From a virus, in the IMG/VR virus record IMGVR_UViG_3300023174_000752, positions 1 through 20,510 of that record: a stretch of DNA of 20,510 bases, one strand, 5' to 3'. This document shows, piece by piece, positions 1,112 through 20,510 of this stretch. The notes beneath the pieces are model-generated. The model was not told the origin of the DNA. It made no database searches and saw only the letters and a program-made list of their open reading frames with translations. The stretch's first letter is position 1. Every line of letters starts with the position of its first letter. A program made the translations under genes and the position numbers.

Positions 1112-3748
1112 ATGCAAATTTATAGTCTAGATTCGTATAATATAACGCCATTATCTAGCAACTATTATAATGACAGCAATGTACAGTTTCATAAAAACAC
1201 CTTATTTACTGAAAATAACATTTTTATTAATTTAGAAAAAATCTCAGAAAATCTTAATGATTTTAGTATTAATAATTATTCTGCATTATCTTTAACAGAT
1301 AGAAAAAACCTCAGTGATGTGTTAGAATTAACTCCATTAGCTCCACTAGAAGATGAAGGGTTCTCAACATACCTGGCAGCTAATGCACTATATAGTATAA
1401 CAGATAGATCTCGCTACTGGGTTGTTGAAGAGCCACCTGTTTCCTTTAATACAGCGTCTATTAAAGTCTCAGGTACTACTGATAAGATGGACAATCGCTA
1501 TTATTTTGAAATTATTTTTCTAGATAGTAATAAATGTAAAGTAGCTCATGAAAATGACGGTACAAGAAGATATCTTACAACAGATACAACTGACTCACTC
1601 CTTTTTTGTAAGGAAGCTTCCCTAGACAATTTAGGCGAATACAGCCCGCAGATTTTCTTGTACACATATGACAGAACAAACGATTTAATTGTTTTTTATA
1701 AAAATTTATCTGATATTATTTACTATGTAGCGTATGACAGTGCAATGCAAGAACTTACTCTCATTTCTACAGTAACTGGAACTAATTTAAATTTTACAAA
1801 TCAAACAGTTTTTCGCTGTCAACAGAGAGTGGATGATTCGAACATTACACCTTTAATAGACCCATGGGTCTCTTATGAAAAAAACTCTAATAATGCTATT
1901 CCAATATATAAAAAATTGAGCCATGAGGATATTGAATCTAATATGCTTCTCAATTCGCAGTATTCTACTATTACTGGAACTGAATTAAACACCAATATAT
2001 TATCCTTAAAAAATACTAATACACCAGAAAATTATCAATCTAGAGCCAATCCTTTCTTTCAAGAACCAGGTGTTCTCATGAGAGAATATAAAAAACTCTT
2101 TACTGGATCAAATCAAGAACTAGGAAATGATAATATAACTGTAGGATACGAAGCCTATACAGCAAATGTAATTTTAAAAAGAGATAAAGTAACATACTTC
2201 CATGTACCTCAAAACTTTTTTCCTCTCAAAATTCTTAATTTAAATGATTCAGCGCTAGCAGAAGCAGGAGCTATAGCAGGTGACCATCCAATTAAAAGCG
2301 ATAAAATCTTTAAAAAGAAAGCCAACTATAAATTTACCAGCCCTTATGGCAATACAAAATTAGAAAACACAGGCAGTTTTCTGTGTTCTTGGTTATCAGG
2401 CAATGCCAACGCGTACACACGCCCTGTTTGGGTAGATAGATATTATTTTCCATCCAAAATATCTTTTCTCGGTGCACTCACAGCAACAGATTTTAATGCA
2501 ATAGAGTATCAATCCGGCTATGATTGCTTACGAAACATATTTCCATCACAAATACAAGTAGTTGATATTATTTCAAACTCTATTTTTGAGCCTGGTACTT
2601 ATTATGCTTATCAGCATCTTGGTTCTGAATTTAGTAAAAAATATATTGAATCAAAACAAGCCGGTTTAGTACAATTTGGTATAACCGCCAATATTATTTT
2701 ACAAAAAGAAACAGCTACTAGTGGTAAATCTACATATAGTAGTTTTATTAGTGGCGCAACACCCATACCACCTATTACACCCACACCAACATTAACACCT
2801 ACACCCACACCTACGCCTACTCCCACTATAACACCTACACCCACTGTAACATCCACACCCACACCCACACCCACATATACGCCCACGGGCGCGCCCACCT
2901 TTACACCCACACCAACACCCACTATAACACCCACGCCAACCATCACTCCCACACCCACAATATTAGCACCAACACCTACACCAACTATTACTCCCACTCC
3001 AACATCAGAATTTGTATATTTAGGTCTACCTGCAACTCTTAATTATAATCTTGATCTAGCAATAGAATACAAGAAGTTTACAGGGAATAATATAGGATCT
3101 GTTCCTAGAAATGTTGCTTTCACATTGCTTGGTAATGCAGGCAGTGTAGTCACTACTGCACCTGCTATTAATACAGGAAATGGTTGGCCCGCTGGATCAA
3201 GAATTACTCTGACAATTCCTGCTGGCAGCTTTGTACATGGTGCTGGTGGTAGAGGCTCTTATGTGATATCACCTCCAACTATACTGTCTGCAGAGAAAGG
3301 TGGTACAGCTATTAATATTACTGAAAACTCTAGTATTACCTTTAATATTGTTAATAACGGGGTGTTAGGTGGTGGTGGTGGAGGTGGTGGAGTAGGTGTA
3401 GTGACTGATACTGCATTTTGTGGAGGTGGTGGCGGTGCAGGTGATGGCCCGGGCTTTGGAGGTGTTGGTTACGGGTCAGCTGCTACTAGGGATGCTGGCT
3501 TCTTCGCAAGATATACAGCAGCTCCTGGTGGCTCTCCAGGTAGCAGCACAGCAGGTGGTGCAGGTGGGGCAATTACTGTGGGAATATATGGTGGTACTGG
3601 GGGTAGCTTAGGTCAAGCTGGTAATTCAGGTAGAGGCACTGTTGCATCAGGAGACGGGGTTGGTGCAGCTGGTGGTAAAGCTGTTGCTCTCAATGGAGGT
3701 ACTGTTACTATTACAGGAACAGGCACAGTATTAGGAGCTGTTTCATAA
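1112..3748 (+). CDS. Large tail protein with Thr-Pro linker and Gly-rich adhesin-like C-terminus
   Basis: This 878-residue virion-surface candidate has three parts. Residues 1 to about 549 are an unrecognised Asn/Tyr/Ser-rich structural region. Residues about 550-632 are a Thr-Pro repeat containing [12 protein letters not shown]. Residues about 640-878 are a Gly-rich domain with [18 protein letters not shown], then [13 protein letters not shown] near residue 750, then many GG turns and a Thr/Gly/Val tail ending TGTVLGAVS. The C-terminal half is paralogous to that of the left-edge gene. The plan suggests a tail or baseplate protein that displays a distal adhesin on a flexible or rigid Thr-Pro stalk. 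The ATG at 1112 sits behind a TAAATA element 42 nt after the previous stop. Function is inferred from architecture and position only. Confidence 0.75.
2760..3005 (+). repeat. Thr-Pro coding repeat, copy 2
   Basis: About 82 codons of imperfect Thr-Pro pairs with I, V, S, Y, F or L substitutions. The [12 protein letters not shown] island at 2888-2923 matches the islands of copies 1 and 3 at the protein level but uses different synonymous codons. The reverse complement gives an open Val-Gly frame, which is an artefact of the repeat. Confidence 0.9.
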
Positions 3749-5527: not shown

Positions 5528-6996
5528 TGAATATTACACAAGAAGTTAATAATTATGAGATGATTTATGATAGATACCCATCTCAACTTATTTCATTACC
5601 ATATTCTTTAGAAGAGATTAAAATACAGCCAAATGATACAGTTAATAGCGATGTTATAAATCTCAAACTACAGCATTTATATGAAAATTTTCTCTATATT
5701 TATACTAAGAGTAAAATAGCTTCAAATATTATACCAATTAGTTCTACAGCAGTTTTAGGAATGAGTACTTACTTTACATATTTAGCGTGGAATTATAATT
5801 TATCTAGCTCTGAATTCAAACCTGTTACTTGGAGTTTGCCTGATGCATTTAATAATATTAAAACAATTCATGCTATCTCTTCACCTGATCTCGGTGAATA
5901 CTCTATTTTTGGTTCAAATGGAAAAACGTTATTTATCGTACGATCTACTGATACTGAAAGTGAAGTTCTTTCTACTTCAGTTATTACTCAATTTAATACC
6001 CCAGCTTCAAACAATGTGTCTTTTACTAATATTGAAGCAATAACAGATGGACCAGATCAAAGCATTCTTGTTTTAGATAGTGGCAATAACAGCCTTTATC
6101 AATATGAAGCAAGAGGATACACACAAGACAATAATGTGTTTTTTAATAGACTAGTTTTTAAGAATTTGCTTGGAGGATATGGGTCTGCAGACGATAAACT
6201 TTCATTTAATGCACCTACAGATGTAGTTTCCTATAATGGTAATGTATATGTTTTAGATACTGGTAATAGCTGTGTTAAACAGTATGATCAAAATTTAAAC
6301 TGGGTTAGTACATATAGACTAAATCGCGACTTTTTAAATACCCCGCCAAAAAAACTTACAGTTGATGCTGGTGGTAATTTCTTTTGCTTACTTTCTGGAA
6401 ATAGAATAAATATTTATTCACCTAATTTTCAACAAAAGACAGAAGTTGCTATAGATTATCTCAATAAAACAGAGACTATTATTGATATTGTTTTTTCTAA
6501 AACAGATGCAAATATATATTATGTAGTAACTAACGAAAATATATACAAAGGATTAGTTAACAACCCAGGCAACACAATAGGCAAATATTTATTGTATTTA
6601 CATAGGTATAACGACACACAAACTATATCAGCTTTCACTTCTATTGGCATTGGTAATAATGATAGAAACTTAATAGTCTCAAAAAACCCTTCAACCAATG
6701 CACAGATTATTGGAGCATTTTATGATAATATAAATTTATATGATATACTAACTATACCTAATTTTGACATATATACAATGAATGACATTTCAATAAAGCC
6801 TGAAGAATATGTTCAGAGCTGGGTCATTAATAAATCACTTGTTAAATTGGTTACCAATCATCTTAGATTTATTGATCAAATTATAGGCAAGTTTCAATTT
6901 AAATTTGATTCAAGAAGAAATTCAGTTTTTCAGTTCACACGGTACTTGACAGCACGTGAACAAACAAATCTAACGCAAAGAGCGGAGATCCTATAA
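5527..6996 (+). CDS. NHL/beta-propeller-like structural protein
   Basis: This 489-residue protein carries at least two NHL-like blades. [17 protein letters not shown] starts near residue 177 and [18 protein letters not shown] near residue 235. The [VL]xDxGN[NS]x[VL]xxY signature is characteristic of NHL repeats. The C-terminal 70 residues ([20 protein letters not shown], then [13 protein letters not shown]) look helical and may be an attachment segment. The start overlaps the previous stop in a TAATG, and GGAG sits 7 nt upstream, so this start appears to be reached by ribosomes already on a polycistronic message. No -10-like hexamer precedes it. Its place between two adhesin-type genes suggests a baseplate or fibre-base protein. 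No enzymatic motif is evident. Confidence 0.65.
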
Positions 6997-8321
6997 TGAA
7001 TCAAGATTTTGATAATTATATAGGTCAAAATGAAATTGTTACAGATTCTGCTATTAACAGATGCTTAGAAAATATATTTAATTTGCAGCAGCATCTTGTT
7101 GATACTTTACAGGATGAACTTACACCAGAAGCTCTCAACCTGCCTTTTATATTGAACATTCCCTGGACACCCACACCCACACCCACCCCAACACCCACTA
7201 TTACTCCTACACCCACTGTTACTCCCACTATAACGCCCACACCTACTAATACGCCTACTAATGCGCCTACATTTACTCCCACACCCACACCGACTCGTAC
7301 TTTAGTACCCACGCCCACACCTACCACAACACCTACACGCACACCTACACGCACACCTACCCCCACACCTACAGCAACTGTAGATCCTTATGAGAAATTA
7401 TCGGTCTTGATTTTTAATCAAAAAAGTTATATAGAAGCTTCTATTAACCTTTACGATTATATGTGCCAGTATCTAGGCCGCACCCCTGCTAGCTTCACTA
7501 AAGCTTTAGATGTATTTTTTTATAACGGTTCATTAGTTGGTTGTAAGAAAGGGTATAATTATGCCATGCGTACTGGTACTGGTTGGCCTGCAGGTAGTAA
7601 AATTCAAATATACAATCCGCCTGTAAAAATTAGTGCGAGTGCGCCATATGATCTGGCTGGAAATTACCCAACAGCTAACAGCCCTGTAACTGGTCCAATT
7701 GCAGGCGTTATAATGGGAAGAGGCGCAGATGGTCAGTGTGGTGCTAGCATGTGTTGTGGGTGTTACTATTGGAATAACTGGCAGACATATTATAATTGTG
7801 ACCTAGCAGAGACAGCATGGGGCCTTTGTGGCAATGGATGTTCTGGTACACCTGGTGATGCAATTTGGATTGATGCTGGTCTTACTATGGTAGAAATATA
7901 TAATGAAGGTGTTATTGCTGGTGGTGGTGGCAACAATTCATATGTTGACAGAGGCCGCGGTGGAATTGGTGCTGGTGGTGGTGGTTTGCCAGGCGGTAAA
8001 GGCAACCTAGGGACTTTAGGATATGCGAATACACGCGAAAGTCGCTGCAACGCATATCAATTATCTGATTGGTCTGGTGGTTATCAAGGAGCTCAAATGT
8101 TCAATGCTGGTTATAATGGCAGTGCAGGGTTTGCTGGTGGAGCAGGCAATTATGGTGGTAGCGCACCAGGATATGCTTTAAAAACGTTCGGCCATCCATA
8201 TCAATGGAAGACAGGGCTCAGTCCCGCAGGATTACCGCTTTTCTTACCAGTAGGTGGCGGTTCTGGTCGAATTGATCCATTTAGTTCTACTGTTATACGC
8301 AATGGGTTAATAGGCCCTTAA
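6996..8321 (+). CDS. Thr-Pro-linker adhesin with Cys-rich and Gly-rich C-terminal domain
   Basis: This 441-residue protein has a short helical N-terminus (residues 1-55), a Thr-Pro linker (58-128) with [12 protein letters not shown], and a C-terminal domain. That domain contains [13 protein letters not shown] (near 194), a cysteine cluster (C248, C253, C254, C256, C268, C278, C282), and [11 protein letters not shown] followed by many GG turns. It is the third copy of the linker-plus-Gly-rich plan in the window, with the shortest N-terminal part. The start is coupled to the previous gene by TAATG, with GGAG 8 nt upstream. The cysteine cluster is unusual for a phage fibre and could form disulfides or bind metal. 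The receptor-binding role is inferred from resemblance to gp38-type polyglycine adhesins. Confidence 0.75.
7165..7380 (+). repeat. Thr-Pro coding repeat, copy 3
   Basis: About 71 codons of Thr-Pro pairs, including an Arg-bearing stretch ([11 protein letters not shown]) absent from copy 2. The shared island [12 protein letters not shown] is at 7260-7295. Confidence 0.9.
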
Positions 8322-16080: not shown

Positions 16081-17070
16081 ATGAAACATTGTTTGGTTCT
16101 TGGTGCAGGTGGATTTATTGGTAATCATTTGGTTAATAAATTAGTCAAGCAAGGCCATTGGGTCAGAGGTGTTGATATTAAAACACCTGAATATGGCGAA
16201 ACTAAAGCCAATGAATTTTTAACATTTGATTTGAGGAAAAATAAACTGGTAATGGAGTCTTTTGATTACTGTCCCAATGGTGAAGGGTTTGATGAAGTGT
16301 ATCAATTGGCAGCTGACATGGGTGGTGCAGGTTACATATTTTCTGGAGACCATGATGCAGATGTGATGCACAATTCAGCTCTTATTAATTTGCATGTGTG
16401 CGAAAATGCCATCAAGTTTAAAACCAAGAAAGTATTTTATTCTTCTTCTGCTTGCATGTACCCAGAGCACAATCAATTGGATCCCAATAATCCCAATTGT
16501 GAAGAGAGTTCTGCTTACCCTGCAAATCCTGACAGTGAATATGGGTGGGAGAAACTTTTCAGTGAACGTCTTTATTTAGCTTTTAACCGCAATCACAATT
16601 TAGATATTAGAATTGCCAGGTTTCATAACATTTTTGGACCTTATGGGTCTTGGAACAATGGCAAAGAAAAAGCACCAGCTGCAGTGTGCAGAAAAGTAGC
16701 ACAAGCACAAGATGGTGGTGAAATTGAAATCTGGGGTGATGGTAAGCAAACACGCAGCTTTCTTTACATTGATGAATGCTTGGAAGCAGTTGAGAGGTTA
16801 ATGAATTCAGATTTCAAAGGACCTGTGAACATAGGATCTGAAGAAATGGTTACAATTGATCAATTGGTTGATTTGACTTGCAAGATAGCAAAAAAGAAAG
16901 TTGTTAAAAAACATATTCCTGGCCCTACAGGTGTTCGCGGCAGAAGATCAGACAATAAACTCATTAAAGAAAAGCTTGGCTGGGCTCCACAGATTCCATT
17001 AACATATGGTTTGCAAAAAACCTATAAATGGATTTCTAAGCAGATAAGCACCTGTAGCTCAGCTGGATAG
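16081..17070 (+). CDS. GDP-mannose 3,5-epimerase homologue
   Basis: This 329-residue SDR-family sugar epimerase has the NAD-binding GAGGFIG (8-14) and LAADMGGAGYIF (77-87). The catalytic Cys is in SSSACMYPE (C125), the Tyr/Lys pair in SEYGWEK (Y154, K158), and the second acid-base Lys in KEKAPAAVCR (K197). RFHNIFGPYG and HIPGPTGVRGR complete a sequence very close to plant GDP-mannose 3,5-epimerases. Those enzymes convert GDP-D-mannose to GDP-L-galactose and GDP-L-gulose. All three catalytic positions are present, so it is probably active. The gene runs 23 nt into tRNA-Arg, whose D-loop provides its stop codon (17068-17070). The last residues STCSSAG are therefore tRNA-encoded. A role in host or virion glycan building is inferred. 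Confidence 0.85.
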   Translation: MKHCLVLGAGGFIGNHLVNKLVKQGHWVRGVDIKTPEYGETKANEFLTFDLRKNKLVMESFDYCPNGEGFDEVYQLAADMGGAGYIFSGDHDADVMHNSALINLHVCENAIKFKTKKVFYSSSACMYPEHNQLDPNNPNCEESSAYPANPDSEYGWEKLFSERLYLAFNRNHNLDIRIARFHNIFGPYGSWNNGKEKAPAAVCRKVAQAQDGGEIEIWGDGKQTRSFLYIDECLEAVERLMNSDFKGPVNIGSEEMVTIDQLVDLTCKIAKKKVVKKHIPGPTGVRGRRSDNKLIKEKLGWAPQIPLTYGLQKTYKWISKQISTCSSAG

Positions 17071-19275: not shown

Positions 19276-20244
19276 ATGCCGAAAATACTTGTCACAGGTG
19301 GCTATGGATTCATAGGTACCCATTTTCTCATACGTCTCTTAGAAGATACAGATTTTGTTGTGTACAATGTTGATTGTGAATCCTATGCAGCTAATAAAGA
19401 CAACATAAAAATGTATCTCAAGTACAATAAACAATACCGCAGAAGACTCAAACTGTTTAAAAAAGACATATCTAATAAGAAGCAATTGGATGCATTGTTT
19501 GCAAAAATTAAGCCAGATTATGTGGTTAATATTGCAGCTGAATCTCATGTGGATAACAGCATCACAGGACCTGCACCTTTTATTCATTCTAATATTGTGG
19601 GCACATTTAATTTACTAGAGTGTTCCAGGAAGTATGATGTGAGCAAATACATTCAAGTGAGCACAGATGAAGTGTATGGGCAGTTGCATGATTTAAATGA
19701 TGCTCATTTCAAAGAGAATGACAGCTTGCATCCTAGCTCTGTGTATTCAGCTTCTAAAGCTTCTGCAGATTTATTAGCTCTGTCTTATTTCAAGACATTC
19801 AAGCTTGATGTGTGTGTTACTCGTTGCTGCAATAACTATGGCCCTTATCAGCACAAGGAGAAACTGTTACCCAAGACTATTCTCAATGCTTTGGGTAATT
19901 TACCAATTCCAGTGTATGGCAAAGGTGAAAACATGAGAGAATGGATACATGTGCAAGACCATTGCAAAGGCATTCTTGCTGTTCTCAATGAAGGTGTACC
20001 AGGTGAAATATACAACATTGGCACTGGCACAGTTTTGACAAATATCAAGCTTGTTAAACAGGTAATTGAGTTAACAGAGAGAAAAGAAGATCTTATTGAA
20101 TTTGTTGAAGACAGAAAAGGACATGATTTTATATATGCTACCAACAGTGACAAGATTGCCAGTGAATTGAAATGGCTACCCAAGATAGATTTTCAGGAGG
20201 GGTTGAAGCAAACAATTGCATGGTATAAAAAACAGTTGAATTAA
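19276..20244 (+). CDS. rfbB: dTDP-glucose 4,6-dehydratase (RmlB/RfbB-like)
   Basis: This 322-residue extended-SDR enzyme has the NAD-binding TGGYGFIG (7-14), NIAAESHVDNSITGP (85-99) and the catalytic triad T130-D131-E132 in QVSTDEVYG. YSASK carries Y157 and K161, followed by CCNNYGPYQHKEKLLPK, REWIHVQDH and GHDFIYATN. These are the family signatures of dTDP-glucose 4,6-dehydratase, which makes dTDP-4-keto-6-deoxyglucose, the precursor of rhamnose and other deoxysugars. It is slightly shorter than the bacterial norm of about 350. No RmlA, RmlC or RmlD is in the window, so the product may be used by host enzymes or by genes outside. With the 3,5-epimerase it suggests phage-directed glycan synthesis. 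A related CDP- or GDP-sugar dehydratase is a lesser alternative. Confidence 0.85.
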   Translation: MPKILVTGGYGFIGTHFLIRLLEDTDFVVYNVDCESYAANKDNIKMYLKYNKQYRRRLKLFKKDISNKKQLDALFAKIKPDYVVNIAAESHVDNSITGPAPFIHSNIVGTFNLLECSRKYDVSKYIQVSTDEVYGQLHDLNDAHFKENDSLHPSSVYSASKASADLLALSYFKTFKLDVCVTRCCNNYGPYQHKEKLLPKTILNALGNLPIPVYGKGENMREWIHVQDHCKGILAVLNEGVPGEIYNIGTGTVLTNIKLVKQVIELTERKEDLIEFVEDRKGHDFIYATNSDKIASELKWLPKIDFQEGLKQTIAWYKKQLN

Positions 20245-20285
20245 TTAACTATACATGCATAATTAATTATAGTTCATTAACAACT

Positions 20286-20510
20286 GGGGCTGTAATGGTA
20301 TCGATTGAACAGTGGAGTTTGCAAGAGCAAGTACCGGGGCATGCCGGTTTACCAATAGCAAAACAACATTAAATGCCGAAGATAACTTCGACATGGCCAT
20401 GAGTCTAGAAGAAGCTGATGCAATCCTTGCAACAGCAGGCTTTGTTGATTCAGAAGCCACACTCGAGCTAGTTTAACTACTCGATCGTTCTACTGTAGAT
20501 TAAAGCTTGT
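20286..20510 (+). ncRNA. ssrA: tmRNA (transfer-messenger RNA), 3' end beyond window
   Basis: The sequence GGGGCTGTAATGGTATCGA at 20286 is the conserved 5' end of one-piece tmRNAs (tRNA-like acceptor and D-loop half). A stem ACCGG/CCGGT (20333-20337 with 20344-20348), containing the conserved GGCATGCC, fits pseudoknot 1. After the A-rich AACAACATTAAAT comes a resume codon GCC at 20375 and an open tag frame to the TAA at 20474-20476. The sequence after the stop would form helix 5 and later pseudoknots. The 3' tRNA-like half (T arm, CCA side) lies past the window edge, so the molecule is incomplete here. A TATAGT (20268-20273) upstream could be a -10 box for a precursor with a short leader. Confidence 0.85.
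20375..20476 (+). other. tmRNA tag reading frame (33 codons, then TAA)
   Basis: From the GCC resume codon the frame reads AEDNFDMAMSLEEADAI, then LATAGFVDSEA, then TLELV and TAA. No ATG, GTG or TTG start in this frame lies close upstream, so it is a tag rather than a normal gene. It has nine acidic and no basic residues and ends LELV rather than the common LAA. The exact resume codon is inferred from alignment to known tmRNA layout. Confidence 0.7.

Follow-up and report, generated by a model that had tools for sequence, protein, structure and literature searches.

A tmRNA gene at the end of a 20,510-base viral fragment from IMG/VR (this whole fragment is the window referred to below) encodes a 33-residue tag, the internal core of which recurs in the tags of other environmental phages, while its last four residues, LELV, are strictly kept among its closest relatives. 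Judged by its sequence, the gene at 20286 is a genuine phage tmRNA of the known, one-piece kind, and its 33-codon tag frame is under purifying selection at the peptide level. We propose, with rather more belief than doubt, that it is a functional tmRNA with a two-part tag (the core and LELV), which would steer proteins away from the usual ClpXP pathway. The record ends in the middle of the gene, the window holding the following parts of it:

20286 to 20510, plus strand: 5' 225 nt of the tmRNA gene (ssrA), cut by the contig end, the 3' end being expected at about 20696; 96% identity with the relatives L010 and L011
20286 to 20292, plus strand: 5' strand of the acceptor stem, GGGGCTG, including G3 of the expected G3-U70 alanine identity pair
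20333 to 20359, plus strand: PK1-like region with a GC hairpin, ACCGGGGCATGCCGGT...AATAGC, following the 5' domain and preceding the resume codon; conserved, with compensating changes
20375 to 20473, plus strand: tag frame of 33 codons with the resume codon GCC, AEDNFDMAMSLEEADAILATAGFVDSEATLELV; an open frame under selection
20402 to 20443, plus strand: core of the tag, residues 10-23, SLEEADAILATAGF; pN/pS 0.03 at residues 10-19, recurring in other phages
20462 to 20473, plus strand: C-terminus of the tag, LELV; pN/pS 0.03 at residues 30-33
20463 to 20484, plus strand: hairpin of the helix 5 type, spanning the tag end and the stop codon; predicted in every relative examined
20474 to 20476, plus strand: stop codon of the tag, TAA, as read from the sequence

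The sequence at 20286 (GGGGCTGTAATGGTATCGATT...) is the 5' strand of the tRNA-like domain of a tmRNA. The window by itself gave no tmRNA call with ARAGORN or with the Rfam model RF00023, because the record stops mid-gene. The same tmRNA was found in 29 other IMG/VR contigs of 19 to 230 kb (28 by scans for a sequence pattern and for the tag, and L182 by a later scan). L010 and L011, whose tags are identical to that of the window, run on to a complete tRNA-like 3' half that ends about 186 nt past the equivalent of 20510 and leaves the acceptor stem fully paired; the 3' partner of GGGGCTG that the preliminary description had expected downstream is therefore present in these two relatives. Full-length copies are 400-413 nt long. 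With RF00023, seven full-length relatives of the clade scored 84.9-99.9 bits and L182 scored 92.1 bits, about twice the gathering score of 47; a permuted, two-piece tmRNA was rejected, RF04321 giving 16.7-27.4 bits against a cut-off of 47.

The acceptor stem is paired in 7/7 positions, and both the G3-U70 pair and a 5-bp T arm are present, in 28/28 full-length relatives, the window contributing only the 5' strand; acceptor pairs 5-6 carry compensatory changes among these relatives. Compensating changes are also seen in the alignment of the PK1-type stem (ACCGG/CCGGT, ACTGG/CCAGT and ATTGG/CCAAT). The discriminator base is A in 27/28, the exception being L034, which near 6323 reads CGCCTCC-T and has U in its place. 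Like bacterial one-piece tmRNA (RF00023), the clade combines the one-piece layout with G3-U70, the T arm, a tag frame and a stop hairpin. It differs from it in that UUCGAC of the 5' domain is replaced by AUCGAU or UUCGAU, in that CCA is not encoded, and in the tag, which in bacteria has about 10 residues and ends in LAA, whereas that of the window is 33 residues long, acidic and ends in LELV. The two-piece tmRNAs of Melnitz and its relatives, which are aquatic myophages (PMC9004378), are permuted, unlike the one-piece molecule described here.

The record further carries tail-fibre, exonuclease, dCMP deaminase, endolysin and sugar-epimerase genes along with three tRNA genes, and the last epimerase gene ends at 20244, upstream of the tmRNA start at 20286. 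Two nucleotide-sugar epimerase genes, both phrog_540, lie within a short distance (16081-17070 and 19276-20244), and two proteins encoded at 1112-3748 and 6996-8321, one of them tail-fibre-like, contain long PTPTPT repeats beside glycine-rich domains. The nearest cultured relatives of the terminase are T4-like phages, rhizobial phages first, at 34-39% identity, which is too distant for naming a host. Neither DNA comparison nor tblastn with the tag, both limited in sensitivity by the short query and low-complexity filtering, found a relative of the tmRNA in cultured phages.

The tag frame is open in 24/24 distinct tag DNAs, while the other two forward frames always contain stops. Across these 24 sequences pN/pS is 0.24 in the tag frame versus 1.14 (+1) and 2.29 (+2) in the others, and by segment it is 0.15 for residues 1-9, 0.03 for residues 10-19, 0.54 for residues 20-29 and 0.03 for residues 30-33. 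This pattern of selection fits a two-part signal, since the core and the last four residues are fixed and the linker between them is relaxed. ARAGORN independently called the same 33-residue frame in L005, L014, L019 and L218 (L005 and L218 being one contig); the short AEAKLELV frame that it picked in L022 is unsupported by the alignment and the codon analysis. The claim of a phage-borne tmRNA with a long, 33-residue tag ending in LELV, made in the preliminary description from the letters alone, is thus borne out by the RF00023 matches in the relatives, the ARAGORN frame and the codon selection, and the nine acidic and no basic residues were recounted as such. AlphaFold2 predicted helices at residues 11-20 and 26-31 around a GF turn (mean pLDDT 75), so that the helix-GF-helix shape suggested earlier reappears as a prediction of moderate confidence. 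The tag had no match in PDB or Pfam and no significant match in PHROGs.

Within the clade the tag ends in LELV in 28/29 cases and in FELV in 1/29, one of the 29 having an added Tyr, and a ClpXP-type ssrA tag with a C-terminal LAA or AA was rejected accordingly. The LELV codons sit in the stop hairpin, and part of their constraint is therefore at the RNA level. The two strands of this hairpin co-vary (CGAG/CTCG, CGAA/TTCG and TGAG/CTCA) by synonymous changes that leave the peptide as ELV, which implies that the RNA helix and the end of the peptide have both been preserved.

A control set, assembled from viral contigs with a generic tmRNA 5' pattern, yielded 68 tmRNAs with 29 distinct tags, 28/29 of which end in AA and 28/29 of which are 8-23 residues long; as it takes in ends of prophages and attachment sites of hosts, it allows only a rough comparison. 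In the tmRNA database paper the commonest tag length is 10 residues (PMC11915505). Cultured actinophages already provide examples of phage tmRNAs and of tags that are long or end in LV: the tag of Mycobacterium phage Kumao has 31 residues and ends in ALVAA, and that of Gordonia phage BlueNGold (EEANAPVVTEADFAEIEAFANSEAAALV), the tmRNA of which lies among tRNA genes, has 28 and ends in AAALV. The tag of Bxz1, long and with an ALV end, fits this group. These actinobacteriophage tmRNAs (Bxz1 group, BlueNGold and Kumao) resemble that of the window in being phage-encoded and in their long tags, some ending in -ALV or -ALVAA, but differ from it in RNA sequence and host group. The window tag has no significant similarity to the Bxz1 tag (shuffle P 0.79), and its assignment to a Bxz1/Gordonia tag type was rejected for want of any likeness past the final LV, the Gordonia tag being compared by eye. 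The tag of Bacillus phage G has 13 residues; directly upstream of its tmRNA lies a tRNA with the stop-type anticodon TTA (L247, 605-678).

The core was found starting from a control tag that resembles that of the window (L129), followed by profile scans. About 27 further viral contigs have tags with [DE][MFL]A[PM]S[VL]xEA[DN]xIL-xxx-G[FY], with few departures, examples being ANSFDMAPSVEQADAILAATGYVETELATA (L176), AESNFDFAPSVAEADAFLKASGFVDAELLAA (L188) and ANSDIDMELAPSVAEADAILAKYGYAEEELQLAA (L208). RF00023 matched 18/18 core-sharing loci scanned (69-148 bits), and each of the four core-sharing tags tested beat all 5,000 shuffles in comparison with the window tag, whereas unrelated tags did not. 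Outside the window clade the ends of core-sharing tags are mostly LAA-like. The tmRNAs of L174, L176, L188, L208, L222 and L230, for instance, have the same internal core as the window tag and match RF00023, but their tags end in LAAA, LATA, LLAA, LQLAA, LQPVA and LLLVE, and RNA identity across the core-sharing groups is about 46% (about 44-50%). The phages that carry these tmRNAs differ: a Terminase_6N match was clear in 7/7 window-clade contigs tested, compared with weaker matches in 2/10 core-sharing contigs. Other non-LAA ends (ALVIA, LLLVE) occur on core tags outside the window clade in L204, L205, L207 and L230, which suggests that departures from the LAA end arose more than once. Another tag-like stretch, in G006 (E 0.007), falls in a reverse-strand frame with nothing remarkable about it and was put down to chance.

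The preliminary description had also read the LV end as a possible phage-specific tag type. This stands in so far as long -LV tags exist in actinophages (BlueNGold); it does not hold as a general phage type, because most phage tags with the motif end in an LAA-like sequence, and what these tags have in common is their internal core. We put forward only tentatively that diverse environmental phages use a phage-specific tag, consisting of the helix-GF core on dissimilar tmRNAs, to which a T4-like clade adds an invariant LELV in place of the ClpX-type end. If this is true, infecting phages would possess a protein-tagging system of their own, served by a dedicated reader. In the literature searched, which largely excluded subscription journals, we found no account of the shared core or of the conserved LELV end.

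In concert with SmpB, tmRNA releases ribosomes that have stalled on nonstop mRNA and adds a tag, and the final LAA of ordinary tags is the contact for ClpX. We propose that during infection the phage tmRNA would be charged with alanine, bind SmpB and EF-Tu of the host, enter ribosomes stalled on broken mRNAs and free them, and that the unfinished protein would thereby gain Ala and the 33-residue tag. A search of 26 related phage contigs, up to 230 kb in length, revealed no gene for SmpB, which implies the use of the host SmpB; ClpP and SspB were likewise absent from the phage contigs tested, which may be fragments. The first part of the tag would be the helical core (S-L-E-E-A-D-A-I-L-xxx-G-F), common to other environmental phage tags and presumably read by an adaptor or unfoldase of host or phage. 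The second part, the C-terminal LELV, would replace the LAA read by ClpX and may hand the protein over to another reader, for instance a protease with a preference for C-terminal Val, instead of the usual ClpXP route. LELV may commit the tagged protein to another protease, or else to stability.

The tag could alternatively be the normal degron of a host, the gene having been derived from a bacterial lineage with the same core. Some phage tmRNAs do group with host-lineage tmRNAs (PMC9004378), the core is found in phages with very different or undetected terminases, as expected of a host source, and most core-bearing tags have an LAA-like end. However, a tag-motif scan of about 85,000 GTDB species found no relative of the window tag, and a profile search of 1,191 genomes (398 of Pseudomonadota, 395 of Bacteroidota and 398 of Bacillota, a sample that left out Actinomycetota, PVC phyla, Cyanobacteriota and others) gave no tmRNA-type match to the core, only short matches inside long frames. 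The best bacterial profile match (L252, E 1.6e-4) was discarded, ARAGORN finding no tmRNA there, and a scan for a bacterial source with the 5'-end pattern returned six loci, none with a tmRNA. We regard a host-derived tag as possible, albeit doubtful. It is unlikely that the molecule rescues ribosomes without promoting degradation, LELV blocking proteolysis and the fragments persisting as with the laboratory tmRNA-DD variants. LELV lacks the terminal AA contacted by ClpX, and the clade kept the core but lost, or never had, LAA, both of which agree with such a role; yet escape from ClpX alone does not call for a near-invariant LELV (pN/pS 0.03), as ends selected merely for escape should drift, and hydrophobic C-terminal residues suit proteases like Tsp/Prc.

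The two helices predicted by AlphaFold2 would allow the tag to be a small peptide with an activity of its own, carried on truncated proteins, but the lack of any match in PDB or Pfam, or of a significant one in PHROGs, speaks against this, and we hold it to be very unlikely. A further idea is that the molecule is a decoy, titrating SmpB and inhibiting trans-translation in the host, a role proposed for the RNA of DS6A, which lacks a tag. There is a precedent in a phage RNA comprising little beyond the tRNA-like domain, and a similar molecule is an inhibitor of tmRNA (PMC4131195). Here, in contrast, conservation extends over the whole mRNA-like part, the resume codon, the tag and the stop hairpin, and selection acts on the frame, which makes a decoy highly improbable. 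That the long tag is a neutral extension, a product of functionless drift, would be in line with the relaxed residues 20-29, but deserves hardly any credence, being contradicted by the codon analysis of residues 10-19 and 30-33 and by the occurrence of the core in phages whose tmRNAs are only about 46% identical.

tmRNA genes are found in about 2% of sequenced phages (402/18,146; PMC9004378). The presence of one core across dissimilar phage tmRNAs, together with a strict non-LAA end, makes it a testable matter which factor reads the core. The tag may direct unfinished proteins in a phage-specific way, and this class of tags also raises the alternative of a phage redirecting or sparing tagged proteins. 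The core-sharing tags also offer degron research a collection of natural tags that is ready for use.

Upstream of the tmRNA the window has one further conserved element:

20272 to 20282, plus strand: conserved leader, GTTCATTAACA, shortly before the tmRNA and downstream of an AT-rich box

In most relatives the corresponding motif, GTTC[TA]TT[GA]A[CT]A, precedes the tmRNA by 12-16 nt, and the loci contain it almost nowhere else; the window has one match, versus 0.2 expected. The motif may indicate where transcription begins or represent an RNase P leader. In loci L010-L037 the leader is kept whether it is preceded by a tRNA-Met gene or by an AT-rich box resembling TATAAT or TATAAATA.
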